Part shown: one piece after another, positions 5,401 to 57,391 of the stretch
How positions within the stretch are numbered: the first letter of the stretch is position 1
Layout of the letters: each line of letters begins with the position of its first letter
IMG/VR virus record: IMGVR_UViG_3300035704_000008
Span: 1 to 64,000 of that record
DNA from: a virus
Direction: 5' to 3' (one strand)
DNA: 64,000 nt
Translations under genes and position numbers: made by a program
Notes under the pieces: generated by a model
What the model was told of the DNA's origin: nothing
What the model saw: only the letters and a program-made list of their open reading frames with translations
The model's database searches: none

Positions 5401-6252
5401 GCCCCAGGACTTGAACTGGTCCGCGACGGGCTGGACCAGCGGCCGGATGAACGCTATCCCCTTGCTGACCGCACTCAGCCACGGCACCAGCACCGGCGAT
5501 GCGATCTGGGCGCTGACCACCTTCCACTTGGTGCCGATCTCCTTGGACAGGTCCAGGACGTGGTTGTACGCCGCGCCTTCGGACCGGATGGCCGCGATGG
5601 TGTCCTGGGCCGCCGCGATCTGGTTGTCCGCTGAGGTCCGCTGGGCCTTGGTGGTGGCCTGCGAGCGTGCGATCTGCGCGGCCGCGAGCTGCTTCTGCGC
5701 CGTCTGGAGCTTCTGGTTGTCCTTGGAGACGTTGGAGAAGACTGACCTGGCCAGCGCGCCGAACAGGCCGGCGCCGACGGCTGCGGCGCCGAACGAGACG
5801 CCGATCGCGCCGACTCCGGCGGCGATCCCTCCTGTCAGCGGGATCAGCGCGGGGGTCAGCGCCGCCAGGGTGCCCTTCAGCGACGGGCCGCCGGCTTTCT
5901 CGGCTATCTTGCCGAACGAGTCGGCCAGGGTCCTGTTCGCCGCCGCTGCTTCCAGCGCGTTCCGGGCGTCGTCCTGCATCGCGTCGTCGAGGCGGCGGAT
6001 CGCGGCGTCCGCGGCGACCGCTTTCGCCGTTACCCGGTCCTCCGCGTCGCCGGTCAGCCGCAGGGCCTTCGCCAGCGTCGCCGATTCGGCGGCGGTGCGG
6101 TCCTCTTTCTTCCCCAGCGTGTCGATGGCGTCCGCGAGAACCTTCGCGCCCCGCGCGGCCAGGGCCGTGTTGTCCCCGACTTTGCGGATGTCGCCCTGGA
6201 GCTGCCCGGCGCCCCGGGACAGGAAGTCGAAGGTGATCGACTGGCCGGCCAC
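2491..6252 (-). CDS. Tape measure protein with lytic transglycosylase domain
   Basis: 1253 residues, the longest gene of the window. It sets tail length and is threaded through the tail tube. The N-terminus is alpha-helical and Ala-rich, with hydrophobic stretches around residues 120-170 and Ala/Gly-rich segments near 450-560. Two near-identical GRVSGGIQGL repeats occur mid-protein. Residues about 868-982 form an SLT-type transglycosylase domain (TESGGNPNAIN with the catalytic Glu, then SRGLMQV and YDPLANI), expected to cut peptidoglycan during DNA injection. It lies downstream of the tail chaperones as usual, but a plus-strand three-gene cassette separates them. Confidence 0.93.
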   Translation of the reverse strand: MAGQSITFDFLSRGAGQLQGDIRKVGDNTALAARGAKVLADAIDTLGKKEDRTAAESATLAKALRLTGDAEDRVTAKAVAADAAIRRLDDAMQDDARNALEAAAANRTLADSFGKIAEKAGGPSLKGTLAALTPALIPLTGGIAAGVGAIGVSFGAAAVGAGLFGALARSVFSNVSKDNQKLQTAQKQLAAAQIARSQATTKAQRTSADNQIAAAQDTIAAIRSEGAAYNHVLDLSKEIGTKWKVVSAQIASPVLVPWLSAVSKGIAFIRPLVQPVADQFKSWGEAVSRYFSSSAGSAEIRRLAVAFGAFSADQLSALGVFFTDIGKAVLNLGRDLAGHNVDFGAFSVYLDQWGGAFLRWSQSAAARHDVTVFLDWIRANGPVTKDLLKNLGGVLAAFAPGLSGAGTLELRLVTDFLGFLARTPKAVAKPLTEVAGALLLLQKTGVLKVGIKIAGPALKWLSGGVINIGGGAAVGAEIRAAFASGGAAAAAEIRAAMAGGGVAAGGGGLAGAAGSGAVAGKAAGGGFLAAFRAALGPAAAGVIVGALIRGVGDTLSPAGTFAGRLNAQFQADGHLWSTSLLHSFTFGGLEAWLTTKIGQPVGGALNNVGSGAKLWAQGFASSVGGFFSSIGHAAAVAFGHAGDSADALRTKNLVPLQGEVGRVSGGIQGLAGTIQGTMLSALRAAGAKSDAVRTQNLSPLLGEVGRVSGGIQGLQRSINAMHGKTVNVGVHASGSGGMTFTQKVAASISSGGFSLKSLASGGIIRQGTGPTADDVPAMLSRGELVVPAHMVKAGAADNLRGRIPGFAGGGIAGLTPFAANAEYNFGQAAEAALLRAEFANLKKAVAAAAKAKAAAITSSKVPNVGSGVARWKGTVDQALRMEGLSTAFDSRVLYQMQTESGGNPNAINLTDINAQRGDPSRGLMQVIGSTFRAYHWPGTSSNIYDPLANIAAAINYARHVYGPQLGNQYGGIGSGHGYALGGLVPGYASGGVAGQGAAYLKAWQSRHGGPYGLAIGPTVLNQQIAAMSAAAGRARTLSRAGGLSAGQHRFWANTAASESRLLATYGKELTTERAWRTQLGLNELGLDKEIRAAGNLKSLAGPVKDWKAQLGRDKATVTAISKMLGYSNAYLAAHKPPVKPAPPATGVQATHTYGGDVANNLGTVLASALGPFTGAARGGMVFDRGGTLRPGFNPVWNGTGRPEHLVPAQGGAATIRFEVASSGSAFDAFMLAWMKKNVKVKGGGNVQTAFGSR

Positions 6253-6274
6253 AGGTCACCCGCCTTCCGTCCGC

Positions 6275-6320
6275 TTGCGTTCCTGGTACCAACCTGGTAC
6301 CGTCTGGGTATCACTTAGAG
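6275..6320 (+). promoter_or_regulatory. Possible promoter/operator with repeated GGTACC
   Basis: The gap before the plus-strand cassette contains CTGGTACC twice (11-bp period) and a third partial copy (CTGGGTATC), followed by a GAGAAGGAG ribosome site. GGTACC is self-complementary, so this could be an operator for the cassette's ribbon-helix-helix protein. No convincing -35/-10 pair is seen; this is inference from the repeats. Confidence 0.3.
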
Positions 6321-6332
6321 AAGGAGCGCGAC

Positions 6333-6581
6333 ATGAATCCGGTGATAATCCACGCGGACGGCACCGACTGTCGCCACGAAGGCAACCCGCAGGCGACCAT
6401 GCGCGATGATGGCGGCCCGCTCTGCCCGGCCGGCCAGCCGGTGACGCACATCCGGCTCAACGGCCATGTGCTCACCATCGAGCAGGCGGGCGCGGCATTC
6501 AGGCAAATGACCGATGCCTTCGCTAAGGCCGTCAAGCCGCTACGCGCTTTCTTTAGCGGGCTAGGCCAGGGTGCCCGGTGA
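6333..6581 (+). CDS. Hypothetical cargo protein
   Basis: 82 residues, ATG with a strong GAGAAGGAG ribosome site 6 bases upstream. First gene of a three-gene plus-strand operon inserted in the minus-strand tail module. The N-terminal part has Cys/His (DCRHEG, LCPAG) and the C-terminal part is helical. No family recognised. Confidence 0.7.
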   Translation: MNPVIIHADGTDCRHEGNPQATMRDDGGPLCPAGQPVTHIRLNGHVLTIEQAGAAFRQMTDAFAKAVKPLRAFFSGLGQGAR

Positions 6582-6715
6582 CCTACACGACCAACATCCG
6601 CCTCGACGACGACCTCGCCGAAGCCGTCAAAACCTACGCCAAGGCTAGCGGCGGCATCAGCATCGCCGACGCCATCCGCCTCCTGATCACCAAGGGACTG
6701 ACACAGAAGCCATGA
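6578..6715 (+). CDS. Ribbon-helix-helix DNA-binding protein
   Basis: 45 residues from a GTG overlapping the previous stop (GTGA). The pattern is a short beta strand (TTNIRLDDDLAEAV), helix, turn, then a second helix (SIADAIRLLITKGL), the canonical RHH/CopG fold that dimerises and binds operators. It probably autoregulates its own cassette or represses the late operon around it. It could also be an antitoxin, but no partner toxin is recognisable. Confidence 0.75.
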   Translation: MTYTTNIRLDDDLAEAVKTYAKASGGISIADAIRLLITKGLTQKP

Positions 6716-6897
6716 CCGCAATCGTGATCGTGTACCTGCTCGCATGGGTGCCCCTCGTCTTCGCCGGGCGCAGGCTCGGGAGGCGCCGGGGCAATCCCGA
6801 CGCGGGGTTCTGGCTGCCCGCCCTGCTCGGCGCGCTCGGCTTCGCGATGTTCACCGCGATCACCGTCGCCGACGGCGCGGCCCCGCGCAGGGGCTAA
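6712..6897 (+). CDS. Small membrane protein
   Basis: 61 residues, ATGA overlap with the RHH gene. Two hydrophobic segments (IVIVYLLAWVPLVFA; LPALLGALGFAMFTAITV) joined by a strongly basic loop (GRRLGRRRG) give a hairpin membrane protein. It could be a superinfection-exclusion or toxin-like moron product; function unknown. Its 3' end overlaps the frameshifted end of the convergent tail chaperone by four bases. Confidence 0.7.
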   Translation: MTAIVIVYLLAWVPLVFAGRRLGRRRGNPDAGFWLPALLGALGFAMFTAITVADGAAPRRG

Positions 6898-7375
6898 CGG
6901 CCGTCGCTCATCATCTCCTCGGCCGCGTCGATCAGCGCTTCGAAGTCCGCGATTTCGAGGAGGGGGATTTCCCACGGGCGGATGTGGAATTCGCGGGTGA
7001 AGATGACGATATACCGGTGCCGGTCGTATGTGTGCCATCCGGGTCCGGGCTGCCGGCGGGGATCGTAGGGCCCGCGCTGCCCTCCTCGCCCGCGGCCTGG
7101 ACGGCGGCAGCGGCGGATTCCAGCACCGACTGGATCATCTCGTGCAGGTCCAGCGGCACCGTGTCATCCAGGATGCCGGCCAGGTCGACGTCGCGGCCCG
7201 CCTGCCGCCAGATGAGCCACGCCAGCGTGCACATCGCCTTCGCGCCGCCGGAGGAGAGGTCGTCCTGCCATTCGACGTACCGGCGGCCGTAGGCTTCCTC
7301 GATGACGAGGGCCTCGGAGACCTTCGGCTTGGTTCCGTCGTACTCGAATACCTCGCCGTTCAGGGTTATCTTCAC
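6894..7375 (-). CDS. Tail assembly chaperone, -1 frameshift (GT-type) product
   Basis: A -1 slip at the heptamer 7067-7073 joins the first 103 codons to a 57-codon extension ending in TAG at 6894-6896, giving 160 residues. The extension reads as a natural domain (WHTYDRHRYIVIF, REFHIRPWEIPLLE, DFEALIDAAEE), with the PWE..LL motif seen in the T part of such chaperones. The fusion is expected to bind the tape measure during tail assembly. Confidence 0.8.
6932..7375 (-). CDS. Tail assembly chaperone, in-frame (G-type) product
   Basis: 147 residues when read in frame 0. The folded part (residues 1-100: ITLNGEVFEYDG, SEALVIEEAYG, LAWLIWRQAG) resembles tail chaperones encoded just upstream of tape measures. 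The C-terminal 45 residues are low-complexity Ser/Pro/Arg text, as expected if this frame is only the terminated product and the real tail lies in the -1 frame. Confidence 0.8.
   Translation of the reverse strand: MKITLNGEVFEYDGTKPKVSEALVIEEAYGRRYVEWQDDLSSGGAKAMCTLAWLIWRQAGRDVDLAGILDDTVPLDLHEMIQSVLESAAAAVQAAGEEGSAGPTIPAGSPDPDGTHTTGTGISSSSPANSTSARGKSPSSKSRTSKR
7067..7073 (-). promoter_or_regulatory. Slippery heptamer GGGCCCT for -1 frameshifting
   Basis: On the minus strand the heptamer G-GGC-CCT fits the X-XXY-YYZ rule in the zero frame (GCG GGC CCT), allowing both tRNAs to re-pair as GGG CCC. It lies at codons 101-103, exactly where coherent sequence moves from one frame to the other. Confidence 0.8.
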
Positions 7376-8269: not shown

Positions 8270-9316
8270 TTACCCCTTGCTGATCATGCGCAGTAGCGCC
8301 GTGGCGTTGTTGGTGAAGGTGCGGCCCTTGATGGCTGCACGGGCCTTTGCTGCGGCGTCCTGCCGCTGTTCCGGGTGTGCGACGGCCCACCGGATCTGGT
8401 CCCCGGCTTCTTCCGGCGTGGCGTAGGCCGGGAGCATGGGAAACAGCCCGTCGCCTTCGGGTCGCGGGTCCCTGGTGAACCAGGTGCCGCACGCGGCGAG
8501 CTCAACTTCGCGGGGGCCGACGGCCCAGCCTTCGCCTTCGTGCTCGTCTTCGGCTTCGCGGCGGTAGAAGTTGATGCCGGTCCGGGACTGCCGGTAGATC
8601 TCGGCGGTCTGCTGGTTGTCGACGCAGTTGTCGGGGTCGGTGGCGGTCCAGTCCCGCAGCGGCGAGTCTTCGGGGAGGTCGAGCCAGGGGCCGGCGAGGT
8701 GGACGTCGAGGCCGGCGAGGTCCATCTGCTCGAAGAACCGGACGCGGGAGGGGAACCCGGTGCCGATGAATGACAGGTCCCACTTCTTCCCGGCTGCCGG
8801 GTCGGCCGGGTAGTGGACGGTCTCCCTGTAGGCGTGGGGCATGTAGGCGGCGGGGACGCCGAGGGCCTGGTAGGCGGCGATGTTGACCGGGTCGTTGAGC
8901 AGGTTGACGTCGGCGTGGCCGGCCCGCTCGAGCTGCTCCCCGTCCTGGTAGGGCGATTCCGTGTGGAGCAGCACCACCTTCATGCCGCGGCCGCGCATCA
9001 CGTCGAGCAGGTAGGGCGGGTACCAGAACGCGGAGACGAGCAGGACCACGTCGGGCCAGCAGAGGAACGCGCCGCGGAGGATGTCGTGTGCGGCCATGGT
9101 GAGCGCCGTCTGACGGTCCCATGCTTTGCGCATCGCGTCCTGGCCGTTCTCGTCGGTGATCCCGGCCGGGACGTGGGCGGTCTCGAAAAAGCTGATCCGG
9201 TCGCCGAGGTTGAACGTGTAGACGTCCTCGCCGAGCCCGCGGAGCGCCTCGGTCCAGCCCTCGTACAGGTCGTGAACTGAGAAGTGAGGGCCAGGATGGC
9301 CGATCAGCCAGCGCAT
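8270..9316 (-). CDS. CgeB-like glycosyltransferase
   Basis: 348 residues, two-domain GT-B-like protein. The N-terminal domain has the LLHTESPYQDGEQLERA and NDPVNIAAYQALGVPAAYMPHAY blocks. The C-terminal domain has LSFIGTGFPSRVRFFEQM, HLAGPW, GINFYRR and REVELAACGTWF, characteristic of the CgeB/DUF3880 group. It would transfer a sugar from a nucleotide-sugar donor in the host cytoplasm. Its place between two major tail genes suggests that the tail tube is the acceptor; virion glycosylation by capsid- or tail-linked transferases is known in actinophages. Confidence 0.8.
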   Translation of the reverse strand: MRWLIGHPGPHFSVHDLYEGWTEALRGLGEDVYTFNLGDRISFFETAHVPAGITDENGQDAMRKAWDRQTALTMAAHDILRGAFLCWPDVVLLVSAFWYPPYLLDVMRGRGMKVVLLHTESPYQDGEQLERAGHADVNLLNDPVNIAAYQALGVPAAYMPHAYRETVHYPADPAAGKKWDLSFIGTGFPSRVRFFEQMDLAGLDVHLAGPWLDLPEDSPLRDWTATDPDNCVDNQQTAEIYRQSRTGINFYRREAEDEHEGEGWAVGPREVELAACGTWFTRDPRPEGDGLFPMLPAYATPEEAGDQIRWAVAHPEQRQDAAAKARAAIKGRTFTNNATALLRMISKG

Positions 9317-25097: not shown

Positions 25098-26420
25098 TTA
25101 CCAGACCAGCCCGGCCTTCTTCCGTGCCTCCTCGGAGGTCATGCGGTAGAGGGCGTGCTGGTGATACCGGGCCGAGTGCTCGTCACCGTCGGTGCGGGTG
25201 AGCGGCTCACCGGCGGCGGCTTCCTCATCTGGGGGAAGTGCCTCGTCGTGCTCGTCCGGCTCCGGGTCGCCGAAGGCGCCGGGAGTGGACATGCGGACGC
25301 CGAGGATCTCGGCGCCGCTGTACGCCTCGAAAGGCGTCGGGCCGAACTCTTTGAGGCCCAGCTCGTGGCGGCGGACCGTGGTCAGCTGGCCGCCGCGGGG
25401 GTAGTGCTTGTCACCGCGGCGCAGCTGCGGGTCGGAGCGGACGATCCGGCCCGTGAAGGACTGGGCGGTGATCGACCCGTTCCGGATGTTCTCCAGCACC
25501 TCATCAGCGAACGGGGTGTCTGAGTACCGGGCCAGGGTCAGCAGCCCGCGGGCCTCGGGACGGATGTCCACCGGGGTGGCGATCGGCATCGACCCGCGCT
25601 CAGACGGGGTGCCGTGGATCGTCATGCCGTGGTTGTACATGACCTTGACCTTGCCGAACCCGGCCCGGGACCGGCCGATGTCGGCCAGCACCTTGTTGAA
25701 CGCGGCCGGGTCGATCTCCTCGATGTAGTGGCCCTCGAAGTCCTGGATCTCGGCGGGGGCGTTGAACGCCGTGGCGTACGCCTCGACGAGCCGGCCCGTA
25801 CTGTCGCCCTGCGCGGCGCGGACGATGTGGATGTCCTCGAGCTCGTAGGTGCGGAAGTACACCGCCTCGGCGCGGGACGCGCTGCTGCTGCTGCTGTTGT
25901 CTGCCACGTCGTGCCCGTGCTTGCCCATGGCTGCCTTGATCTTCCCCTTGATCGCCGATAGCTGCGCCGGCGTGTACTGGCCCGCGTTCTTGGCCTGGTT
26001 GATGTAGGACCAGGCGGCCGTCACCTTGTCCGCGGACAGGGGGTACCGCTTGACGCCGGGCTTGCCGGACTTGGACGCCTGGTTGCCGTCGGCGTCGAGG
26101 TAGCCGGGGTCGCCGTAGTCCACGCTGGTGCCATAGGGAGCCTTCGTGTCGGTCGCCATGGCCGCCCTTCCTGCCTTGTGTTCCATTGCCGCGTGGGTCG
26201 CCGGCCAGATGCCGAGCGCCGCGTGGTGGGCCTGCGCGCAGTAACCCTTGGGGTCTTTGATGAACTTGCCGAGGTGCATCACGCACCGGTCGAAGTCGCC
26301 GCCCTCGCCCCACCGGATTTTCGCGGCGCCCTCGCCGTGGACCCAGTACTCGTGGAGCCGTTCGGTGCCGCCCGGGTTGGTGACCTGCCCGCCGGCGCGG
26401 ACCGCGCCCGTCTCATCCAC
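25098..26420 (-). CDS. Prohead protease with N-terminal DUF6582-like region
   Basis: 440 residues from GTG 26420. Residues 1-90 (YWVHGEGAAKIRWGEGGDFDRCV, in part) match a small-protein motif common near phage proteases. Residues about 95-170 (GYLDADGNQ, KRYPLSADKVTAAWSYINQ) look like DUF6582. From about 185 onwards lies the HK97 prohead protease (FRTYELEDIHIVR, YATAFNAPAEIQ, YNHGMTIHG, NGSITAQSFTGR with the serine). It matures capsid in the prohead. A three-part fusion, longer than typical proteases of about 200-250 residues. Confidence 0.85.
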   Translation of the reverse strand: MDETGAVRAGGQVTNPGGTERLHEYWVHGEGAAKIRWGEGGDFDRCVMHLGKFIKDPKGYCAQAHHAALGIWPATHAAMEHKAGRAAMATDTKAPYGTSVDYGDPGYLDADGNQASKSGKPGVKRYPLSADKVTAAWSYINQAKNAGQYTPAQLSAIKGKIKAAMGKHGHDVADNSSSSSASRAEAVYFRTYELEDIHIVRAAQGDSTGRLVEAYATAFNAPAEIQDFEGHYIEEIDPAAFNKVLADIGRSRAGFGKVKVMYNHGMTIHGTPSERGSMPIATPVDIRPEARGLLTLARYSDTPFADEVLENIRNGSITAQSFTGRIVRSDPQLRRGDKHYPRGGQLTTVRRHELGLKEFGPTPFEAYSGAEILGVRMSTPGAFGDPEPDEHDEALPPDEEAAAGEPLTRTDGDEHSARYHQHALYRMTSEEARKKAGLVW

Positions 26421-26425
26421 CGCTG

Positions 26426-26959
26426 CTACCAGTCCAGCCCGGCCGCGGCGCGGAGTTCCCGCGAGCGGAGCAGGTAGTCGGCGTGCCCGGCCGCCGTGTC
26501 CGCCGAGTCGCGGTGAACCGGCTTCGGCGCAGGGGCCGGCTTCTTCGGCGCCGTGTGCACGGCGGGATGCGGGGCGGTGTGCGCCGGGGCGTGCTTCGCC
26601 GCCGGGTGCCTGGTCCGCAGCGCCGCCGTCGTCAGCGGGCCCACCAGCCCGTCGACCTTCAGGCCGTGCGACTTCTGGAACGCCCGCACCGCCGCGAGGG
26701 TCTTCGGCCCGAAGATCCCGTCAACCTTCAGGGGCGGCTTGAACCCCAGCGCGTTGAGGCGGGACTGCAGGTCCGAGACCCGCTTGCCGTGCTCGCCGGT
26801 GCCTACCGGGTGCTGGTTGGTCGGGGTGGGGCGGGCGTCCTTGCCCTTGGCGGCGCTGCTGCTGCCGGAGGCGGCGGCGAACTGGCCGCCGGCCGCGCTC
26901 CCGGCGGGCGCGTGGAACTTGTTGAACCGCTCCGCGTCGGACGACCATGTGTCAGGCAT
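26426..26959 (-). CDS. Peptidoglycan-binding-domain protein in the head module
   Basis: 177 residues from ATG 26959 (GAGGG ribosome site); ATG 26992 is an alternative. The N-terminus (ERFNKFHAPAGSAAGGQFAA) is the head-morphogenesis motif often fused to protease or scaffold genes. Residues about 60-125 form a PG-binding-1 domain (VSDLQSRLNALGF, VDGIFGPKTLAAVRAFQKSHGL). Next comes an Ala/Pro/His linker and an end (LRSRELRAAAGLDW) resembling the protease C-terminus. Possibly packaged in the head or linked to cell-wall binding. Confidence 0.75.
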   Translation of the reverse strand: MPDTWSSDAERFNKFHAPAGSAAGGQFAAASGSSSAAKGKDARPTPTNQHPVGTGEHGKRVSDLQSRLNALGFKPPLKVDGIFGPKTLAAVRAFQKSHGLKVDGLVGPLTTAALRTRHPAAKHAPAHTAPHPAVHTAPKKPAPAPKPVHRDSADTAAGHADYLLRSRELRAAAGLDW

Positions 26960-27063
26960 GGCGTGCCCTCGTCTCCACTTACCGGCTCCCATCGTCTCCG
27001 TACGTCTCCCGATGCCGGCTACGCTTACCCGTCATACGCATATTGCGGAAAGGAAGGTGCGTA

Positions 27064-27645
27064 GTGACAGGCAAGCAAGACGCCCAGGAGGTCAAGCTGG
27101 CAGGCTTGGCCGTCGAGGGCCTGAAGCTCCGGCTGGTCGGCACATCAGCGCTGATCGTCCACAAGTGGAGCGAGAAGGCCAAGAAGCAGATGCTCGACAA
27201 GCAGATGAAGCGGGCATCGCAGGGCAAGGCCGCCAAGGACCCGGAAGAGGACTACCGGGAGTCCCTGTACATCCGCAGCGACGGCTCCTACGGCTTCCCG
27301 GCCGTGGCGTTCAAGGCCGCGGCGGTGCGGGCGGGCACCTACTGCGACATGAAGATGGTGTTCCTGCGCGGCGCGTTCCACGTCGAGGGTGACCTGGTGC
27401 TCATCGAGGGCGAGCCGGAGCCGCGCGAGGATATGGTCCGCGTGGGCATGGGCACCGCCGACATCCGGTACCGGCCGCAGTTCCCGAAGTGGGCGACTGA
27501 GCTGGACATCACGTTCAACAACCGGGCGCTGACGGCTGAGCAGATCGTGAACCTCTTCGAGATCGCCGGGTTCGCGGTCGGGGTCGGCGAGTGGCGGCCG
27601 GAGAAGGACGGGCAGTTCGGCCGGTTCCAGGTGGAGACCCTCTGA
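27064..27645 (+). CDS. Uncharacterised phage protein, array-associated, RAMP-like pattern
   Basis: 193 residues from GTG 27064 with GGAAGG upstream. Basic N-terminal half (LIVHKWSEKAKKQMLDKQMKRA) and a conserved-looking core: YGFPAVAFKAAAVRAGT, GAFHVEGDLVLIEGEP, EDMVRVGMGTADIRYRPQFP, ending GFAVGVGEWRPEKDGQFGRF. The alternation of strands and the glycine-rich last block (GVGEWRP...G.FG.F) recall RAMP/Cas7-type nucleic-acid-binding folds, but this is a pattern impression only. First gene of a plus-strand cassette between protease and portal, directly upstream of a second gene and a 0.63-kb pentamer array. Confidence 0.75.
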   Translation: MTGKQDAQEVKLAGLAVEGLKLRLVGTSALIVHKWSEKAKKQMLDKQMKRASQGKAAKDPEEDYRESLYIRSDGSYGFPAVAFKAAAVRAGTYCDMKMVFLRGAFHVEGDLVLIEGEPEPREDMVRVGMGTADIRYRPQFPKWATELDITFNNRALTAEQIVNLFEIAGFAVGVGEWRPEKDGQFGRFQVETL

Positions 27646-28112
27646 TGGGCGCTTACCAGTTCAAGTCCGGCGCGCACATCCCGAAGTCCGTCACCCCGGA
27701 GGGCGTGATGGAGGAACGCGACCGGATCGAGCACGACTACGGCAAAGTCACCATCGAGCACGCCGTGGATGCGGTCCTCAAGCATCCGGAGAAGTACCCG
27801 AATCTCCGCGCGTTCGGCCCGGCCGACGAGGGTGCCGCGATGCGGCAGGGGATCACTGAAGGTATCCGGCGGGCGTTCCGGGCCGTGGTCATCGTCCGGG
27901 ACGACGAGCCGAAGCCGCAGGCTCAGGCACGGCAGATCCGGGTGCTCCACAACGTCCAGGATTCCGCCGGGGACCTGGTGTACCGGCCTATCACGGCGAT
28001 CCGGCAGTCACCGGATCAGCGGAAGTACCTGATCGGGCAGCTGCGGCGCGACGCGGCCCTGTTCGCCGACAAGATGCGTGACGTGCTGGCTGAGGTCGAG
28101 GAAATCACCTAG
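27645..28112 (+). CDS. Uncharacterised phage protein, array-associated
   Basis: 155 residues, ATG overlapping the previous stop by one base, so coupled to the first cassette gene. It starts YQFKSGAHIPKSVTPEGVMEE. An N-terminal helical half (KVTIEHAVDAVLKHPE) is followed by IRVLHNVQDSAGDLVYRPITAI and a long C-terminal helix (QLRRDAALFADKMRDVLAEVEE). I recall similar two-part proteins in other phages, without a known function. Its stop codon TAG provides the first G of the pentamer array. Confidence 0.75.
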   Translation: MGAYQFKSGAHIPKSVTPEGVMEERDRIEHDYGKVTIEHAVDAVLKHPEKYPNLRAFGPADEGAAMRQGITEGIRRAFRAVVIVRDDEPKPQAQARQIRVLHNVQDSAGDLVYRPITAIRQSPDQRKYLIGQLRRDAALFADKMRDVLAEVEEIT

Positions 28113-28744
28113 GCAGGCGAGGCGGCGCAAGGCACGGCACGGCTAGGCCGGGCGTGGCTAGGCAGTCGGGGCGCGGCGTGCCCTGGCAAGGCGAGTCGTG
28201 GTGAGGCTGGGCGTGGCGTGGCTAGGCAGGCGAGGCCAGGTGCGGCCTGGTAAGGCCCGGCGCGGCATGGCAGGCATGGCGAGGTCCGTCCCGGCGCGGC
28301 TGGGCTAGGCCGGGCGTGGCAGGCGGGGCGTGGCCCGGTGAGGCACGGCCTGGCTGGGCCGGGCTTGGCGTGGCAGTCAAGGCACGGCTTGTCGTGGCGT
28401 GGCGTGGCTTGGCACGGCCGGGCTGGGCGCGGCAGTCAAGGTATGGCTCGGCATGGCGTCGCGGGGCTAGGCGCGGCTAGGCAAGGCACGGCAGGCGCGG
28501 CGCGGCGGGTCCGGGTGAGGCGTGGTCGGGTTTGGCGCGGCATGGCAGTCAAGGCTCGGCTAGGCCCGGTCGGGCTGGGCGCGGCTTGGTCGGGTCAGGC
28601 AAGGCATGGCAGGCGTGGTCAGGCGCGGCGGGGTTAGGCACGGCCAGGCGAGGCGTGGTGCGGTATGGCGCGGCAGGCATGGCTGGGCGTGGCTCGGCAC
28701 GTCGTGGCGGGGCCTGGCCCGGTTGGGCGTGGCTCGGCAGGCGG
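28112..28744 (+). repeat. Degenerate GGCNN pentamer array in 11 units ended by GGCA
   Basis: After an initial GGCA (28112-28115), the sequence parses without gaps into 116 pentamers of form GGC+NN. At 11 places a four-base word GGCA breaks the phase. Units begin at 28116, 28165, 28229, 28273, 28322, 28376, 28435, 28494, 28548, 28612 and 28676, and the last ends before 28740, giving lengths 49, 64, 44, 49, 54, 59, 59, 54, 64, 64 and 64 (8-12 pentamers plus 4). 87 of 116 cores are exactly GGC; the others are single changes (17 GGT, 9 GTC, 2 CGC, 1 GCC). Fifteen of 16 dinucleotides occur in NN; AG never does. It is not coding (period five) and abuts the convergent portal stop. Confidence 0.95.
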
Positions 28745-30178
28745 TCACATGCGGCCGTTCAGCGTCAGCTCTTCCGCCCGCCGGGCGCTGGACGGCCGCG
28801 GCGTCGGCCTGCTCCCATCGCCGCCGCCACCCGGCGAGGTCGGACCCACGCCGAGCCGGGGCATCGTCGGCGGCAGCGGATCAGCAGTCGCCCCCGGCGG
28901 CGTCTGCGGCAACATGTGCTGCACCGGCTGACCAGGCACCTGCGGCGGCACCGCAGCCGCTTTCAGCTGCGTCAAATCCATCGAGTCAACCGCGCTGATC
29001 GCGCTCATCGGGTCATATCCAGCCTGGTGAAGCGCCAGCAGCGCCTGCGCCCTGACCAGCGCCGCCTGGCCGCGCTCAAGCTCGCCATCGGCCAAAGCAG
29101 CGATGTCGGACGTGTCGAACCACAGCCGGTTGCCCGCCGGGACGTCCACGATCTGCGACAGAGCCCCGCACACTGACCGCCACGCCGGACGCGCCCACAG
29201 GTTCGCAAGTTTTTGCATGCTTTCCTGGTAGCCGCGGCCGGCCCCGCGCAGGGGCTCGAGGCCGACCAGGACACCCGGCACCTCGCACGCCGCCAGGATC
29301 CGCTCCGTGCCCACCGCCGACACGCCGCTGAAGTCCATCTGCGACAGCGAGTTGCCGATGATCGTCGCGTCGGCGCCCTGGTCGAGGACGAGGGTCTTGA
29401 ACGCGTTGTCGGCGCCGCCGTACCGGGCCTGCATCCGCTCCCGGATCGCGTCCACGGTGCCCGACTGGAGCTTCTGCGCGTACTTGATCAGCAGGTTCGG
29501 GGAAGCATTATTGGTCAGGTACCGGATCTTGTACGTGGTCAGGCCGTCGTCCCCGGCGATGTCCCGGGTAATCGGCGTCAGCGGGGACATGCCGCGGAAG
29601 TCGGCCGCCGGGTCGGGGACCGGCGCCCAGTGGACGCACTCATCCGCCGGGACGAGGAACCCGTCACCCTGCTCCATCAGCGACTTCGGCGGCTCCCACC
29701 AGTAACCGACGACACGCCGGTACCGGCCGCCGCCGCCGACATGGACCTCCTCGGACACGATCGTCGTCCAGTCCGGCCGCAGCCTGACCAGCCGGTCCTC
29801 ACCGGGGGCGTCCCACACGTAGGCGTTCCCGGCCAGGAACTGGTCCTGCTCCATCCGCGCCAGCAGGTAGCCGGTCGTCGACGGGGGCCCGAACGGGACC
29901 TCCAGCTTGGCCAGGCTGGTGTTGCCGAACAGGTGCTTGTCGTCTTTGGCCTGGTACTGGAACGTCGCCTCGGAGAACAGGGCCATCCGGGCGAGGAGCG
30001 CGGCGAAGATGACCGCGTTGGACGAGCTGGCCTGCTGGGCGTACGCGGCCAGCTGCGGCAGTACCGGTTCCCGGTCAGGGCCGGCGTAGGAGGTGGTCAG
30101 GACGGACGCGCCGGACGCCTGGCCCTCCCAGAACGTGTCCCCGTAGCGGCGCAGCAGCCGGTCAACCAGCCGCGTCAC
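28745..30178 (-). CDS. Portal protein (HK97 family)
   Basis: 477 residues from GTG 30178 (GTGA overlap). It has the portal order: SNAVIFAALLARMALFSEA, FQYQ, LLARMEQDQFLAGNAYVW, DWTTIV, CVHWAPVPDPAADFRGMSPL, TNNASPNLLIKY, LDQGAD, GTERILAACEVPGVLVGL and LWARPAWRSVCGALSQIV. It forms the dodecameric ring at the packaging vertex. The last 90 residues are Pro-rich. The pentamer array begins right after its stop. Confidence 0.92.
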   Translation of the reverse strand: MTRLVDRLLRRYGDTFWEGQASGASVLTTSYAGPDREPVLPQLAAYAQQASSSNAVIFAALLARMALFSEATFQYQAKDDKHLFGNTSLAKLEVPFGPPSTTGYLLARMEQDQFLAGNAYVWDAPGEDRLVRLRPDWTTIVSEEVHVGGGGRYRRVVGYWWEPPKSLMEQGDGFLVPADECVHWAPVPDPAADFRGMSPLTPITRDIAGDDGLTTYKIRYLTNNASPNLLIKYAQKLQSGTVDAIRERMQARYGGADNAFKTLVLDQGADATIIGNSLSQMDFSGVSAVGTERILAACEVPGVLVGLEPLRGAGRGYQESMQKLANLWARPAWRSVCGALSQIVDVPAGNRLWFDTSDIAALADGELERGQAALVRAQALLALHQAGYDPMSAISAVDSMDLTQLKAAAVPPQVPGQPVQHMLPQTPPGATADPLPPTMPRLGVGPTSPGGGGDGSRPTPRPSSARRAEELTLNGRM

Positions 30179-41230: not shown

Positions 41231-43294
41231 TCACTCCTCGTCTAGATCCAGGGTCGACAGCCGCGCGATGGTGCCGCGCAGGTCTGCCGGGTCCAGGTAC
41301 GGCGTGCCGCTGGAGTTCACCGTCCGCACGCCGCGATCGGCCAGTTGCTCGCCGAGCTGCTTCGCCGTCATCTGCCGGTAGGCCCCCCACCCGGGTGCGA
41401 GCGCCCGCAGCAAGCCGACAGCGTCGCGGAGCTTGACCCGCTCATGGCCGAGAACCTCGTCGAGGTCGTCGAGCAGGTCCCTGGATTCGATCGCGCGGGG
41501 GCGGCTGCCGCTGCCGGGCACGCCGCGGCCCTGCCGGGCCATCTCGTCAAGGGACCGGCCGATCAGCGGCGTCACCTGGTCATTGCCGCGGGCCACCGGC
41601 AGGAAATGCACCTGCACGATCTCCGACCGCTGCCCGGAGAACCCCTTGACCAGCGCGGTCCCCCGGTCCGTGCCCGGGATGAGCTCCGTGGCCCGGTGGC
41701 CGCCCGCGTAGGCGCCCTGGCCGAGCAGGGCGTCATTAGCCACGTGGTCGCCGACCGCGAACGCGATGCCGTTGGAGCAGTTCCGGGTCACGTCCCGCGG
41801 CATGCTGTCCTTGGTGGGCGCCTGCGTCGAGACCATCAGGTGGATGCCGCGCTTGCGGTCCAGCTTCACGATGTCGCAGAGCAGGGCGCTGATGTCCTTG
41901 CCGTGCTTCTTGTGCTGGATCGCGACGTGGGCCTCTTCCAGCAGGACGAGCATCGGGTGCAGGCCGACCCCGGCGCTGGCCAGCTGGCGCGTCACCTCCG
42001 GCGCCTCGTGGTCGACGAGCCGCTGCCCGCGGGCCTGCACCTCGTCTTTCAGCTCCTCCAGCTCGCCGAGGATCTGCTCGATGTACTCGTCTTCGGCGCC
42101 CATGACGTACCGGGAGCAGCGCCGTTCCATGACCTCGAAGTCGAAGTTCGTATCGGGGATGAGGATCCGCAGCTCGGTCGTGATGTCGAGGGCGTAGCCG
42201 CACGCTATGACGCGGGCCGCGCTGGACTTGCCCTGCTCGGGCATCCCCCCGCAGATCGTGTTCCGGCCGGTCACCGGGACGCGGATCGGGTCGCCGCGCA
42301 GTACCTTCCCGAACGGCAGTCCCCTGAATACGTCGGTGAACCCGTCGCCGAGCAGCGGGTACGGCCCCGCGCCTTCCTCGAGCGCTCCCTTGTCAGCGAT
42401 CCACAGGTCGAGGATCCCTGCCTCATCGCCGGTGACGGGCCATACTTCCTTGGCTAGCCGGAACAGGCCGGTGGCCAGGTCGGCGCGGCGGCGGGCGATC
42501 CGCTCGGCGGGCACCCCGGCGGGGAGCCGGATGATGGCGTGGGTGCCGCGGCCGTCGCGGCGGCACGGGGTCAGGTACTGCATCGGCACCCCCTCTTTCA
42601 GGTAGCCGGTGATCTGCGGGATGCGGAGCGCGTCCAGCGCCCGGGTGATGGTGGTCTCGTCGATGGACACGTCAGTGTCCGGGCCGGCTGAGGTGGCCGC
42701 CCACTGCGGGGCCATCGCGGTGCCGGCTGCGGCGCGGCCCGCCCAGTACAGGGCGGCGGCCGCGACCCACGGCGCTGCGAGCAGGAACGGACCCCACGCG
42801 ACGGACACCGCGATCACGACCAGTTCGGCGAACCGGGCGGCGACCTCGACGGGGACGGCAGCCTTGGCCAGGTGCCCGGTCGCGATGGCCAGCAGCGTGC
42901 CGGTCCCGGCCAGGATCAGGAACACGCTGAACACCAGCTTCGGGAGCTGGAGCAGCAGCCGGGCCGGGACCTCGAACATGTCGACGCGGCGTTCGTGGCG
43001 GTCCTTGCGGAACGCGGCGAGACGGGATTCCCACTCGAGGGCGGCGTCGAGGTTCCCCGATGTCTCGGCGGCGCGGATCCACCGTTCGTACCGCCCGGCT
43101 GTGCGGGAATCCCATAGCCGTTTCGTGACGACGGCCGCGCCGAGCGGGATGTACATCAGGTTGCGCCCGGCGGCGCGAGTGCCCTCGTGGCGGGCGACGA
43201 CGCTGATGACGCGCAGCGGCGCGGACCGGGGCGGCTCGCTGACGACCTGCCCTTCCAGGACCGCCGGGTCACGCGGGGCGAGCTCAGCTTTCAC
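41231..43294 (-). CDS. FtsK/SpoIIIE-type DNA translocase (TraSA/TraB-like)
   Basis: 687 residues from GTG 43294; TTG 43345 is an alternative. A soluble N-terminal part is followed by two or three membrane segments (LLLQLPKLVFSVFLILAGTGTLLAIA in part; LVVIAVSVAWGPFLLAAPWVAAAALY in part). The motor domain has Walker A GGMPEQGKSSAARV, Walker B HPMLVLLEEAHV, HLMVSTQAPTKDS and an arginine-containing segment. The C-terminus resembles a gamma-like winged helix (TAKQLGEQLADRGVRTVNSSG). Such ATPases move double-stranded DNA between mycelial cells in actinomycete conjugative elements. Unusual in a virion-encoding genome. Confidence 0.85.
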   Translation of the reverse strand: MKAELAPRDPAVLEGQVVSEPPRSAPLRVISVVARHEGTRAAGRNLMYIPLGAAVVTKRLWDSRTAGRYERWIRAAETSGNLDAALEWESRLAAFRKDRHERRVDMFEVPARLLLQLPKLVFSVFLILAGTGTLLAIATGHLAKAAVPVEVAARFAELVVIAVSVAWGPFLLAAPWVAAAALYWAGRAAAGTAMAPQWAATSAGPDTDVSIDETTITRALDALRIPQITGYLKEGVPMQYLTPCRRDGRGTHAIIRLPAGVPAERIARRRADLATGLFRLAKEVWPVTGDEAGILDLWIADKGALEEGAGPYPLLGDGFTDVFRGLPFGKVLRGDPIRVPVTGRNTICGGMPEQGKSSAARVIACGYALDITTELRILIPDTNFDFEVMERRCSRYVMGAEDEYIEQILGELEELKDEVQARGQRLVDHEAPEVTRQLASAGVGLHPMLVLLEEAHVAIQHKKHGKDISALLCDIVKLDRKRGIHLMVSTQAPTKDSMPRDVTRNCSNGIAFAVGDHVANDALLGQGAYAGGHRATELIPGTDRGTALVKGFSGQRSEIVQVHFLPVARGNDQVTPLIGRSLDEMARQGRGVPGSGSRPRAIESRDLLDDLDEVLGHERVKLRDAVGLLRALAPGWGAYRQMTAKQLGEQLADRGVRTVNSSGTPYLDPADLRGTIARLSTLDLDEE

Positions 43295-43568
43295 TGCGGC
43301 GTACTGGCATCTTCGCGGGCTTCCATGCCCTCGCCGCTGGCTCAACCTTGCGGCCGCCGGCCTTCCTGCGCCGCCTGGCCCTGACCACCAGGAGCACGAA
43401 CACGATCATGATCAGCACGGGGAGCGCGTTGTGGCCGAAGTCGAAACCGGCCCGGGCCGCCGTGGCGTTCACCGGCTGGTGGTATCCGGCGTTCCACTTG
43501 CACTGCCACTGCTGCGCCCACGAGCCGGTGTTGCAGTGTGCCGCCATAGCGGCGAGATGGGTGATCAC
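43284..43568 (-). CDS. Small membrane protein
   Basis: 94 residues from GTG 43568. Two Cys near the N-terminus (HCNTGSWAQQWQCKW), one transmembrane helix (ALPVLIMIVFVLLVV), then a strongly basic cytoplasmic tail. It overlaps the translocase by 11 bases and may be its membrane partner. Confidence 0.65.
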   Translation of the reverse strand: MITHLAAMAAHCNTGSWAQQWQCKWNAGYHQPVNATAARAGFDFGHNALPVLIMIVFVLLVVRARRRRKAGGRKVEPAARAWKPAKMPVRRSES

Positions 43569-47527: not shown

Positions 47528-47600
47528 GCGCCGTTAGCTCAGCGGACAGAGCAGCCTCCCTCTCAGGGGCGGGTCCGGGGTTCGAGTCCCTGGCGGCGCG
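47528..47600 (+). tRNA. tRNA gene, Arg-like, anticodon loop atypical (TCT or CTC)
   Basis: Complete cloverleaf of 73 nt: acceptor GCGCCGT/GCGGCGC (last pair T-G), D-arm GCTC/GAGC with an AGCGGACA loop, anticodon stem GCCTC/GGGGC, T-arm CGGGG-TTCGAGT-CCCTG, discriminator G, no encoded CCA. The seven-base anticodon loop reads CCTCTCA, which gives TCT (Arg) at 34-36 but puts C, not U, at position 33 and C at 37. A one-base shift would read CTC with normal U33/A37 but costs stem pairs. Function therefore uncertain. Confidence 0.75.
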
Positions 47601-47717
47601 CGACCGCCGGCCGTCCGGGTAACACCGACGCCACGATGTCCCGCAGGACGGCCGGCGGGACATGCCCGTATCCGGAGATACTTGCCGTCCGTCTCCTGAT
47701 GTGCTTACGGTGCGCGC

Positions 47718-51853: not shown

Positions 51854-52122
51854 GCTGGCCCGACATGATGACGCCCTGGGACGCCGCGCCCGCCGCCCCC
51901 GACCCGCTGCGGGTCAGGATCCTCGGCGGCCTCGCCTACAGCGCCCTCGACCTCCGCGAGCGCATCGCCGGCGACTGCGCCGACTGCGGCCCGGAACTCT
52001 GCCCCGACCACGCCGAGGCCGCCGACCTCGCCGACCAGTTCGAGAACGCCTACATGCAGGTCGCGACCGGCACCCGCGAATGGTGCGACCTCGCGGTCAA
52101 GCTGATCTCGGAGATGAACTGA
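51850..52122 (+). CDS. Hypothetical protein
   Basis: 90 residues from GTG 51850. Contains DCADCGPELCPDHAEAADLADQFENAY, a CxxC...C.DH motif in a helical context. Directly upstream of the RecE-like nuclease (TGATG overlap). Confidence 0.6.
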   Translation: MSWPDMMTPWDAAPAAPDPLRVRILGGLAYSALDLRERIAGDCADCGPELCPDHAEAADLADQFENAYMQVATGTREWCDLAVKLISEMN

Positions 52123-52988
52123 TGACCGTCATCGAGGCCGGGGTCGTGGTCGGCGAGCCCGGCGTCTACGACGGCCTGGACGAGGCCGCCTACCACGCCG
52201 ACCCCGTGCCCGGCGGGTCACTGTCGGCATCAGGCGCTAAGCTCCTGCTGCCCCCGTCGTGTCCCGCCCTGTACCGCTACCGGCGCGACCACCCGAAGGT
52301 GTCGGCGGAGTTCGACTTCGGCACCGCCGCGCACAAGCTCGTCCTCGGCACCGGGCCACCGATCGACATCATCGACGCTAAGAACTGGCAGACCAAGGCC
52401 GCGCAGGACAAGCGGAAAGCAAGCCGCGCTGCCGGGCGCGTCCCGATGCTCACCGACGAGTTCTGCGAAGTGGTGGCGATGGAAGCCGCCATCCGCGAGC
52501 ATCCCGTCGCCGGGCAGCTGTTCGACCCGGCGCGCGGCACCGCCGAGCAATCCATGTTCTGGCAGGACGACGAGTTCGGGATCTGGCGCCGGGCACGGCT
52601 CGACTGGATCCTGAATCCGCGCAATATCGGCGGCCGCTTCCTCGTCGCCGACTACAAGACCACGACCGACGCCAGCCCGGCCGCGATCCGCAAGACGGTC
52701 GCGAACCTGAATTACCACATGCAGGCCGCCTGGTACATCGATGCGGTCGAGCAGTTCTACGACCTCGGTCCGGCGTTCCTGTTCGTGTTCCAGGAGAAGA
52801 CCGCGCCATACCTCATCACCATCGCCGAGCTCGACGACGACGCGATCCGCGCCGGCCGGGCCCGCAACCGGGACGCCTGCGAGATCTGGCGGGACTGCAC
52901 CCAGGCCGGCGTCTGGCCCGGCTACACCGACGACATCGAGCTGATCACGCTGCCGCCATGGGCGGCACGCACCGAGGGGGACTACTGA
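52122..52988 (+). CDS. RecE/exonuclease VIII-like PD-(D/E)XK nuclease
   Basis: 288 residues from ATG 52122. SLSASGAKLLLPPSCPALYRY and EFDFGTAAHKLVLG are the N-terminal blocks of this group. RRARLDWIL and FLVADYKTTTDASP supply the catalytic D...DxK motif, and YHMQAAWYIDAV the downstream helix. It should degrade 5' ends of linear DNA to expose single strands for the RecT-like protein encoded immediately after. Confidence 0.85.
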   Translation: MTVIEAGVVVGEPGVYDGLDEAAYHADPVPGGSLSASGAKLLLPPSCPALYRYRRDHPKVSAEFDFGTAAHKLVLGTGPPIDIIDAKNWQTKAAQDKRKASRAAGRVPMLTDEFCEVVAMEAAIREHPVAGQLFDPARGTAEQSMFWQDDEFGIWRRARLDWILNPRNIGGRFLVADYKTTTDASPAAIRKTVANLNYHMQAAWYIDAVEQFYDLGPAFLFVFQEKTAPYLITIAELDDDAIRAGRARNRDACEIWRDCTQAGVWPGYTDDIELITLPPWAARTEGDY

Positions 52989-52989
52989 A

Positions 52990-54126
52990 ATGACCAGCAC
53001 CGCACTAGACATCAACCACCACGGCGCGACCGCCACGGCGCTGGCGATCCAGCCCGGCCAGATCTCATGGGATCCCACGCAGCTCGCCGCCCTCGGGCAG
53101 CTCGGCCTGGCCGACGCGAGCGACGGCGACCGGTCCGTGTTCCTCCACGTCTCACAGCGCACCGGCCTCGACCCGTTCGCCCGGCAGATCTACATGATCC
53201 CGCGCCGGGAGAAGGTGCCCGGCACCCAGAACTGGCGCACGAAGTGGACGATCCAGACCGGCATCGAGGGCTGGCGCGTCATCCGCGACCGCGCCGAGCG
53301 CCGCTACGGCGTCCGGGGAACACTCAGCCGCGCTACCTGGTACGACGGCGACGGCAACGAGCACAAGGTGTGGGTACGGCCTGACCCGCCCGCCGCCTGC
53401 GAGCTCACCTACACCGTCAAGGACAGCGAAGGCACCGAGACGCCCTACACCTCCGTGCTCCAGTTCCGCGAGTACGCGCAGACAGGCAGCGACGGCGGCC
53501 TCATCGCCCAGTGGGCGGCCAAGAAGTCCCACATGCTCGAGAAGTGCACCGAGGCCGACGTGTACCGCAAGGCGTTCCCGCAGGACTTCAGCGGCATCTA
53601 CCTCGACGACACCATGCCCGCGCAGCAGGAGGACGCGCCGCTCGTCCCGCCCCGCGGCCGCGTCACCGCCGGCGAGATCATCAGCCGCGGACCTGCGGCG
53701 GAGGATGACACCCAGGCCGGCCCGGGGCGTGCGCTCGCCGGTGACGGGGGCCGGCCGGACAGGACGCAGAGCGACCCCAGGGCTGCCGGGGCTGCCTCTC
53801 CTCGGGGTGCGCAGCCGCCTCCGCCGCAGCCTGACGACGAGCCGCGGCCGCCGCCGCGCGCTACCAGCGGGCAGCTCAGCATGCTCGGCCAGCGGCTCGG
53901 CAAGCTCGGCGTCGGCGACGAGAACCGCCTCGGCACCCTGGAGAAGCTCTCCGGGCGCGACCTCGGCGAGCCGGGCCACCTCACCCAGGACGAGGCCGCG
54001 CGGATCAGGGGTCTGCTCGACCGGTGCACGGACGGCAAGGGCGCGCCCGACCGGGGCGCGCTCGTCGAGCTGCTCGCCACCGGCCAGCTGCCCGAAGCGG
54101 AGAAGGCGGCCGGCGGCGATGAGTGA
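52990..54126 (+). CDS. recT: RecT/Bet-family single-strand annealing protein
   Basis: 378 residues. The core (FLHVSQRTGLDPFARQIYMIPR, TIQTGIEGWRVIRDR, ACELTYTVKD, AAKKSHMLEKCTEADVYRKAFP in parts) matches the lambda Bet/RecT family. The C-terminal third is Pro-rich and disordered, then a small helical domain (LSMLGQRLGKLGVGDENRL). With the upstream nuclease it forms a RecE-RecT recombination pair used in replication and repair of phage DNA. Confidence 0.88.
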   Translation: MTSTALDINHHGATATALAIQPGQISWDPTQLAALGQLGLADASDGDRSVFLHVSQRTGLDPFARQIYMIPRREKVPGTQNWRTKWTIQTGIEGWRVIRDRAERRYGVRGTLSRATWYDGDGNEHKVWVRPDPPAACELTYTVKDSEGTETPYTSVLQFREYAQTGSDGGLIAQWAAKKSHMLEKCTEADVYRKAFPQDFSGIYLDDTMPAQQEDAPLVPPRGRVTAGEIISRGPAAEDDTQAGPGRALAGDGGRPDRTQSDPRAAGAASPRGAQPPPPQPDDEPRPPPRATSGQLSMLGQRLGKLGVGDENRLGTLEKLSGRDLGEPGHLTQDEAARIRGLLDRCTDGKGAPDRGALVELLATGQLPEAEKAAGGDE

Positions 54127-55102: not shown

Positions 55103-55549
55103 GTGACCATGCCACCCGAGCCGCCATCAGGGCTCATGGCGGTCGGCCCGCGCGAGTGGATGAACGTGTGGGCCCGGGTGATCGCGCCGCCCTCAGTGAA
55201 GCTCACCGGCGTTATGGCCGCGTATTTCGCGGACTATTCCACGGGTGCGGAAATACGCCCGGGAAACGAGATCCTGGCCGCCGTGTCCGGGCAGCTGGAC
55301 AAGCGGACGGTAATGAAGGCGCTGGCTCAGATAAGGGAATGGGGATTGATATGGCGGTATTCGGAGGGGCGTTTGCAGGGGCGGCGGGGAATGGCGGACG
55401 TGTACCGGCTGACGGTGCCGGCGGACGCTTTGGCGATGATCCCGATGCTTGACCCGGACTACCGCCACCCTGTGGATAACTTCAACGGATCAGGTGATCT
55501 CAGATCAGGTGATCTCAGATCAGGTGATCTGAATGCTCGGAACAGGTGA
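55103..55549 (+). CDS. Replication initiator-like winged-helix protein
   Basis: 148 residues from GTG 55103. VIAPPSVKLTGVMAAYFADYSTG, EIRPGNEILAAVSGQLDKRTVMKALAQIREWGL and ADVYRLTVP form a winged-helix domain like phage or plasmid initiators. The last 25 residues (NGSGDLRSGDLRSGDL) are encoded by the iteron repeats. The next gene looks like the usual C-terminal zinc domain in another frame. Confidence 0.7.
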   Translation: MTMPPEPPSGLMAVGPREWMNVWARVIAPPSVKLTGVMAAYFADYSTGAEIRPGNEILAAVSGQLDKRTVMKALAQIREWGLIWRYSEGRLQGRRGMADVYRLTVPADALAMIPMLDPDYRHPVDNFNGSGDLRSGDLRSGDLNARNR

Positions 55550-55574
55550 TCTCAGTGCACGGAACAGGTGATCT
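55491..55574. repeat. Iterons, five copies of CAGGTGATCT; candidate origin
   Basis: CAGGTGATCT at 55491, 55506, 55521, 55543 and 55565. The first spacings are 15 and 15, the later ones 22 and 22 bases. Each contains the GGTGATC half of a palindrome completed at the end of the array (GGTGATCTCAGATCACC, 55567-55583). Iterons within an initiator gene are a classic origin layout (as in lambda O). Confidence 0.8.
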
Positions 55575-55929
55575 CAGATCACCCCACCCATACCAGTACC
55601 TAAACCACCTACCCAAGCCACAACTCGAGGTTGCCGTCCGCACACCTGCACCTGGAAGGGGGGCAAAGTTGTCCACAGGCACGACGGAAAACCGGGATGG
55701 CGGCCAGCCCCCCGAATGGTGCGGGCAATGCGATAAACGAACCCGGCACCTGAATACACCCGGCGGTCCCGTTCGCTGCGCCTGCCACCCGGACGGCAAG
55801 CTCCTACGACAGCACCGCATTTGTCCTCGCTGCCGGTCGGTCATTCATAAATGGGACCGCAATAGATGCGAAAGCCATATCCCCGTCAGGAGCGCCGCGT
55901 TATGGACGCCGCGGAAAAGAATGCCGTAA
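55546..55929 (+). CDS. Zinc-finger protein, probably detached C-terminal part of initiator
   Basis: 127 residues from GTG 55546 (overlapping the previous stop). The first 60 codons cross the iterons and are Pro-rich. The rest (PPEWCGQCDKRTRHL, VRCACHPDG, ICPRCRSVIHKW) is a double CxxC zinc domain like those at the C-terminus of actinophage initiators. 22-bp repeat changes shift the frame, so the two genes may once have been one. Confidence 0.6.
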   Translation: MISVHGTGDLRSPHPYQYLNHLPKPQLEVAVRTPAPGRGAKLSTGTTENRDGGQPPEWCGQCDKRTRHLNTPGGPVRCACHPDGKLLRQHRICPRCRSVIHKWDRNRCESHIPVRSAALWTPRKRMP

Positions 55930-57183: not shown

Positions 57184-57391
57184 GACGCTCGCCGCGTTCG
57201 GCGCCGCCCTGTACCGGCTGCGCGCGGCCCGGAGGTGGCCGCTGCGGCGTGCCGCGCGTGAGGCGGGGGTGTGCGTGTCGACGGTGATGCGGGCGGAGCA
57301 GGGGCGCAGCGTGGGGCTGGCGCAGGCGATGGGGCTGGCGGGCGCGTACGGCACGACCGTCGGCGCGCTGCTCGACGGGGACGACCAGTGA
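57173..57391 (+). CDS. XRE-type HTH protein
   Basis: 72 residues from GTG 57173. LYRLRAARRWPLRRAAREAGVCVSTVMRAEQGRSVGLAQAMGLAGAYG, read in parts, is a HTH domain. Two consecutive HTH genes precede the methyltransferases. Confidence 0.65.
   Translation: MPPETLAAFGAALYRLRAARRWPLRRAAREAGVCVSTVMRAEQGRSVGLAQAMGLAGAYGTTVGALLDGDDQ

Follow-up and report, generated by a model that had tools for sequence, protein, structure and literature searches.

A phage-borne VIPR system with a guide unit most likely directed against the portal of sister phages

Organization of the cassette and its pentamer array

The window, by which we mean the whole stretch of DNA analysed here, covers 64.0 kb of a 64.9-kb virus record and belongs to a tailed phage whose gene content includes integrase, RecT, exonuclease VIII, portal, protease and capsid genes. 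Within it, gene 1 (vipr; 27064-27645, plus strand, GTG start at 27064) encodes a RAMP protein of 193 aa, a member of phrog_4652 and the putative RNA-binding subunit, and gene 2 (vap; 27645-28112, plus strand, ATG at 27645, TAG at 28110-28112) encodes an accessory protein of 155 aa. The vap ATG and the vipr stop codon overlap by one base, and the first GGCA (28112-28115) of a vrRNA array (28112-28744, plus strand) begins on the G of the vap TAG. These coordinates confirm the initial annotation, which described two coupled plus-strand genes running into an array that starts inside the second stop codon. Ahead of vipr, positions 27000-27063 (plus strand; CTTACCCG..CATATTGCGGAAAGG) are largely common to the four closest relatives (aligned: window, L002, L003 and L004) and probably hold a promoter and a ribosome-binding site.

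The cassette is a single plus-strand block opposed to the minus-strand head operon. The array end at 28744 adjoins the stop codon (28745-28747) of the portal gene (28745-30178, minus strand; Pfam Phage_portal, 1.5e-25), which flanks the cassette. A PG_binding_1 protein gene (26426-26992, minus strand) lies directly upstream, and the head protease gene (25098-26420, minus strand) follows on its far side. The block and its orientation against the portal and the protease/head genes are therefore as first annotated, while the immediate upstream neighbour is the PG_binding_1 gene and only then the protease and head genes. Elsewhere the phage carries a tRNA-Glu (CTC) gene (47528-47601) and glycosyltransferase-like (8270-9316), FtsK/SpoIIIE-like (41231-43345) and N6/N4 DNA methylase (57271-58536) genes; 15- and 22-nt tandem repeats (GATCAGGTGATCTCA and related) occupy 55488-55578.

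A GGY lattice spanning 8 successive pentamers with at most 2 mismatches was matched 56 times in the window and 0 times in 100 dinucleotide shuffles of it, so the array is not a product of chance. Among its 117 pentamers, position 1 is G in 98%, position 2 is G in 91% and position 3 is C or T in 100%; positions 4-5 (NN) include all 16 dinucleotides. The lattice is punctuated by 4-nt steps, always GGCA, at 28112, 28161, 28225, 28269, 28318, 28372, 28431, 28490, 28544, 28608, 28672 and 28736, a feature absent from the initial description of the array. Eleven GGYNN units result, each closed by GGCA, all on the plus strand and containing, in order, 9, 12, 8, 9, 10, 11, 11, 10, 12, 12 and 12 pentamers with as many NN dinucleotides: unit 1 (28116-28160; NN = GA GG AA AC AC TA CG GT TA), unit 2 (28165-28224), unit 3 (28229-28268), unit 4 (28273-28317), unit 5 (28322-28371), unit 6 (28376-28430), unit 7 (28435-28489), unit 8 (28494-28543), unit 9 (28548-28607), unit 10 (28612-28671; NN = GT CA GC GG TA AC CA GA GT GC AT GC) and unit 11 (28676-28735). 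In relatives, 245 units end with GGCA, mostly with a length of 8 to 12 pentamers. Unit 7 shares its first 9 NN with a unit of L002 (4566-4620) and differs in the last 2; the remaining units differ between both phages.

Vipr, Vap and their association with arrays

Gene 1 matched a single PHROG family, phrog_4652 (E 1.4e-32). A profile of 51 gene 1 relatives matched PDB 36pp, the Vipr of Escherichia phage SUSP1, with E 1.1e-13 over residues 16-193, which is nearly full length, and hhalign with SUSP1 agp039 gave E 3e-13. Vipr is the RAMP protein of VIPR (Viral Interference Programmable Repeat), which was presented in an April 2026 preprint as combining Vipr, a small accessory protein Vap and GGY/NN-repeat vrRNAs, and as recognizing DNA non-contiguously, under a 1-nt skip, in inter-phage conflict (PMC13142463). 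RNA binding, DNA binding and repression were shown there for the SUSP1 Vipr (PMC13142463). The AlphaFold (AF2) model of gene 1 (pLDDT 90.6) adopts the RAMP fold of Csm3/Cas7 chains (Z up to 11.7, rmsd 3.5 over 148 residues), and the conserved C-terminal end reads GF.VGVGEWRPEKDG..G.F, the G-loop. Gene 1 is thus a single-RRM RAMP protein with a G-loop, homologous to known Viprs. The RAMP-like character and glycine-rich last motif that had been read from its translation agree with the fold model and the match to 36pp, and the proposed comparison of a predicted structure with Cas7/RAMP and RecT folds came out on the side of Csm3/Cas7 and not of an unrelated fold. The idea of a nucleic-acid-binding filament protein gains support as well. 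These results show that phrog_4652, a family annotated as 'unknown function' with members in cultured Gordonia and Mycobacterium phages, is VIPR.

Partner genes of 150-175 aa are coupled to vipr in most vipr loci, as befits an accessory vap. The AF2 model of the window Vap has a pLDDT of 90.5; a fold search with it returned a best Z of 5.6, many of the listed chains being forkhead/winged-helix domains, and a Foldseek E of about 1. The N-terminal part of the model is at most weakly winged-helix-like. In hhalign, no similarity between the window Vap and SUSP1 vap1 was detectable. A profile match of Vap to SopD (E 0.02) was rejected as too weak. Pfam held no match for gene 1 or gene 2.

Filament proteins that bind nucleic acid exist both among annealing, RecT-like proteins and among RAMP proteins. 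This background is all that speaks for a single-strand annealing or copy-choice recombination system, a role that the initial annotation had entertained, and no computed result favours it. With phrog_4652 as its sole family match and with its Csm3/Cas7 fold, gene 1 was rejected as a RecT or annealing protein; the phage encodes RecT and exonuclease VIII elsewhere (52080-54126), and the target matches given below also disfavour the idea. Copy-choice recombination thus finds no support, and we regard such a system as exceedingly improbable.

A search with gene 1 yielded 80 viral loci and 14 loci from bacterial contigs, and 87 loci had enough flanking sequence for a strict array rule (GGY in 7/8 successive pentamers). 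By this rule, 58/87 vipr loci carry an array on the sense strand and 0/87 on the antisense strand, and 0/138 control stretches of the same contigs do so; most of the 29/87 loci without a strict array at this threshold score 6/8. These phages span 44-72% GC, and in most array-bearing loci the lag-5 signal either follows gene 1 at a distance of ~0.5-0.9 kb or immediately precedes it. Since arrays accompany gene 1 on the sense strand, never on the antisense strand and never in the controls, we conclude that the two form one unit and that the array works in its sense orientation, as expected of an RNA. This strand-specific co-occurrence (58/87 against 0/138) substantiates the functional coupling of the protein with a 5-nt array, and the expected pairing of homologues with lag-5 arrays was found where homologues generally lacking arrays would have spoken against it. 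Arrays of low complexity and variable length could also be pictured as a neutral, satellite-like repeat lying behind the two genes by coincidence. For the family as a whole this is refuted by arrays on one strand in 58/87 loci and 0/138 controls, and GGY is conserved while NN varies across phages of 44 to 72% GC; for the window, too, we give it next to no credence.

The bacterial-contig search revealed no actinobacterial genome carrying a window-type vipr, and the capsid relatives of the window phage include many Gordonia and Mycobacterium phages. Vipr homologues annotated as hypothetical occur in two cultured phages, with a GGCA-punctuated array downstream in Gordonia phage ODay (L255, 3622-3789) and upstream in Mycobacterium phage Brocalys (L256, 2602-2835). 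In Pseudomonas phage LESphi2 (L254, 2582-2906), three arrays lie upstream of the vipr homologue, and their units end in a 6-nt step (GGCAAG GGC), not in the 4-nt GGCA.

Decoding of the guides and their targets

The guide units of every locus were converted into NN strings, which were compared with the collected DNA, with arrays masked and at most 10% mismatch allowed. A 1-nt skip gave 25 matches, while skips of 0, 2, 3 and 4 gave 0, 1, 0 and 0, and 720 order-shuffled guides gave 1 match at the same threshold. The 1-nt-skip matches fall in a DNA methylase motif, in another phage ORF, in vap of other VIPR loci and, for a guide of the window, in portal; in the three target groups whose reading frame was checked, the skipped base is the wobble base. 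At the level of sequence, the published 1-nt-skip rule is therefore reproduced in another VIPR clade and from independent data. A codon-phase test of guide composition favoured positions 1-2 in 30/34 guides, was estimated to be no better than a uniform model, argues solely against guides reading the GC-rich third position and carries no weight as evidence. Apparent skip-3 matches proved to be unmasked arrays of L006 and L007. A skip-1 match between array-like runs of L045, L050 and L051 (about 8871-8886) and the same relative position in L044 and L054 was set aside because these runs may not be real arrays. One guide (L065:7170) matches vap of other VIPR loci (peptide GLIRSVVAIY) at 18-19/20, at L052:6894, L080:6861 and nine others. 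In the decoded pairs, the mismatched dinucleotide of the best match is always one of the 3' half (7 or 8 of 10, 9 of 12, 8 of 9) and never among the first six; from these few cases, a 5' seed in the guides is possible.

The initial annotation had proposed that the protein coats the array. An array that is a protein-coated structural or packaging element of DNA or RNA, without guiding anything, would be in keeping with a regular 5-nt lattice beside a RAMP-fold protein, and the two-G steps could form G-quadruplex-like structures. Against this, the order of the NN carries information that matches genes at the 1-nt skip only, and sister phages with the same head genes do without an array (0/27 among the first 27 capsid relatives). 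We therefore consider a structural element very unlikely; rather than being merely coated, the array appears to encode several guide RNAs, which recognize their DNA targets through the NN dinucleotides with a 1-nt skip.

Lineage DNA was gathered mainly through capsid and portal relatives (160 loci, 2.16 Mb). With the 1-nt skip, unit 10 matched it at 22/24 in 17 places, in the portal gene, and those listed all read VQAGYTHESAIA; its best score at other skips was 18, and the best of 1000 shuffles of unit 10 reached 21, none 22. A scan of 2.9 million viral contigs (viral_contigs) for the 22 matching bases, that is, unit 10 with any bases allowed at dinucleotide 9, a pattern chosen after the lineage matches had been seen, found 18 sites, all in portal genes and in frame 0, with the skipped base at the wobble position in 18/18. 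In 18/18 sites, neither base of dinucleotide 9 of unit 10 is matched, and an exact-pattern scan of viral_contigs with this dinucleotide fixed gave no match. The true target may thus be an uncollected variant, or the position may be tolerated. The other ten units gave nothing clearly above shuffles in the 2.16 Mb of lineage DNA, and an exact-pattern scan of viral_contigs with unit 7 (18 bases) gave no match; targets in competing elements, here the portals of sister phages, were accordingly found for 1/11 units.

The portal match fills unit 10 exactly and ends at the GGCA marks, and the flanking dinucleotides do not extend it, which supports GGCA as a guide boundary. The 4-nt GGCA step would then be a guide-boundary signal, one that the main text of the VIPR preprint does not describe (PMC13142463). 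At the homologous site of the phage's own portal (28994-29029, minus strand; HQAGYDPMSAIS), unit 10 matches 13/24.

Guides of close relatives could be decoded as well. The last guide of L003, which is cut by the contig end (TG GT CA GG GA GG GC GC), matches 16/16 at 52 places; 52/52 of these sites spell WVHGEGAA or WVHGDGAA of the head protease, and in 50/52 no other frame stays open for longer. The head protease of the window itself includes such a site (WVHGEGAA, 26322-26345, 16/16). A guide of L004 (at 2711) matches a near version of the capsid peptide ITPxKAAAWVFGS at 21/26, against a null maximum of 19, and probably targets the capsid gene. Together, the decoded guides of L003 and L004 suggest that the systems of close relatives also point at head genes of the lineage.

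Among the 125 lineage contigs with both genes, the gap between portal and protease ranges from 5 to 2804 nt, suggesting that this site takes variable cargo. It is occupied by VIPR in the window (2328 nt) and by another Vipr type in L207 (1988 nt), where a Vipr-like ORF (6215-6823, minus strand), a winged-helix-like ORF (5550-6062, minus strand) and AGY/NN arrays lie within 5448-6940. The L207 guides match portal genes at 19/20 with the 1-nt skip, and those of an AGY/NN array just behind the portal in L147 also reach 19/20 against portal genes; both scores come from sliding windows, with a control less strict than for unit 10. Lag-5 arrays in lineage contigs without a phrog_4652 gene were seen in L147 (3320-3484 and 3953-4101), L137 (7029-8909) and L249 (1-2122), and Vipr-like genes without a phrog_4652 gene in the same stretches of L137 and L249, in L149 (9280-9891) and in L218 (2233-2826). 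Guide windows of L137 match 20/20 at sites in lineage contigs. We propose, as an evenly balanced possibility, that VIPR systems of different types (phrog_4652 here and, in L207, AGY/NN) have repeatedly landed in the portal-protease gap and that their guides are aimed at sister-phage head genes, chiefly the adjacent portal, with the own portal escaping by divergence and GGCA serving as the guide-boundary signal.

Based on these findings, we consider it highly likely that genes 1 and 2 and the array form a phage-borne VIPR system in which unit 10 is aimed at the portal of sister phages. For the window phage we infer that a plus-strand transcript supplies Vipr, Vap and a GGYNN RNA, which would be cleaved into, or used as, about 11 guide RNAs, from GGCA to GGCA. 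Vipr subunits may align along a guide, the protein holding the GGY triplets and leaving the NN pairs exposed for base pairing. These would pair with double-stranded DNA, skipping every third base, and binding would block transcription of the target; a Vipr with its guide is reported to bind double-stranded DNA and block transcription (PMC13142463). Unit 10 would in this way silence the portal of a co-infecting or resident sister phage and prevent head completion, as superinfection exclusion or competition, and divergence of the own portal at the unit 10 site would provide self-avoidance. With unit 10 aimed at sister-phage portals, the system most likely benefits the phage by stopping related phages from completing heads in the same cell. 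An inter-phage or superinfection role, one of several first proposed, therefore stands as the best guess.

The system could instead control mainly the phage's own or host genes; the array is antisense towards portal and could regulate the own head operon. The cassette does converge on the portal gene, 10 guides are without a target in the sequences searched, and a published VIPR system can drive a lysis/lysogeny switch (PMC13142463). However, the sole decoded guide matches 22/24 in foreign portals against 13/24 in the own portal, and the guides decoded in close relatives likewise correspond to head genes of this lineage, so we find control of own or host genes unlikely. Exclusion of sister phages, the reading we prefer, gives names to natural targets, namely portal for the window phage and head protease and probably capsid for its relatives, and gives 'inter-phage warfare' a specific instance that can be tested, with a mechanism of self-avoidance.

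Comparison with known systems

The initial annotation regarded the cassette as a candidate new system; its class has already been described as VIPR (PMC13142463). It shares with TIGR-Tas (PMC12045711) a phage-borne short-repeat array and RNA-guided DNA recognition, but the effector protein is unrelated and the array layout different. Identity with TIGR-Tas was rejected, as gene 1 has a RAMP fold in place of a Tas/Nop domain and Pfam returned nothing for either gene. Class 1 CRISPR-Cas (type III Csm3/Cas7) is alike in its RAMP fold (Z 11.7) and in the logic of an oligomer on a guide. Unlike the window, it has a repeat-spacer array and cas genes: here a 5-nt lattice is the only repeat, no 25-40 nt repeats with spacers and no cas match for genes 1-2 were found, and the guide information is dispersed in NN pairs.

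VIPR arrays are described as tandem GGY/NN (YNNGG) repeats with hypervariable NN and 9-16 repeats per guide, in seven published types (PMC13142463). The window array fits this description with units of 8-12 pentamers, a single unit of 8 lying just below the range. No hammerhead ribozyme between guides reached the Rfam gathering score anywhere in the window, which sets it apart from the VIPR type whose array is interspersed with them. Compared by description only, its continuous multi-guide array fits the one-line account of VIPR with 'staggered arrays with overlapping vrRNAs' (PMC13142463).

The SUSP1 VIPR (type II) resembles the window system in its homologous Vipr, small second gene, sense-strand GGY/NN arrays, 1-nt skip and targets in competing phages. 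The same array scan found one GGY array upstream and three downstream of the SUSP1 vipr homologue, in agreement with the preprint (PMC13142463). The four vrRNAs of SUSP1 are separate and carry structured tails, whereas the window has one continuous, GGCA-closed array of 11 units, in which no such structured 3' tails were seen. Type II is marked by discrete vrRNAs of ~100 nt, a structured 3' tail and vap1, and the different array layout, together with a Vap unlike vap1, places the window outside characterised type II. The two systems also differ in their targets, with the SUSP1 VIPR directed at a satellite phage and unit 10 of the window matching the portal of a sister phage.
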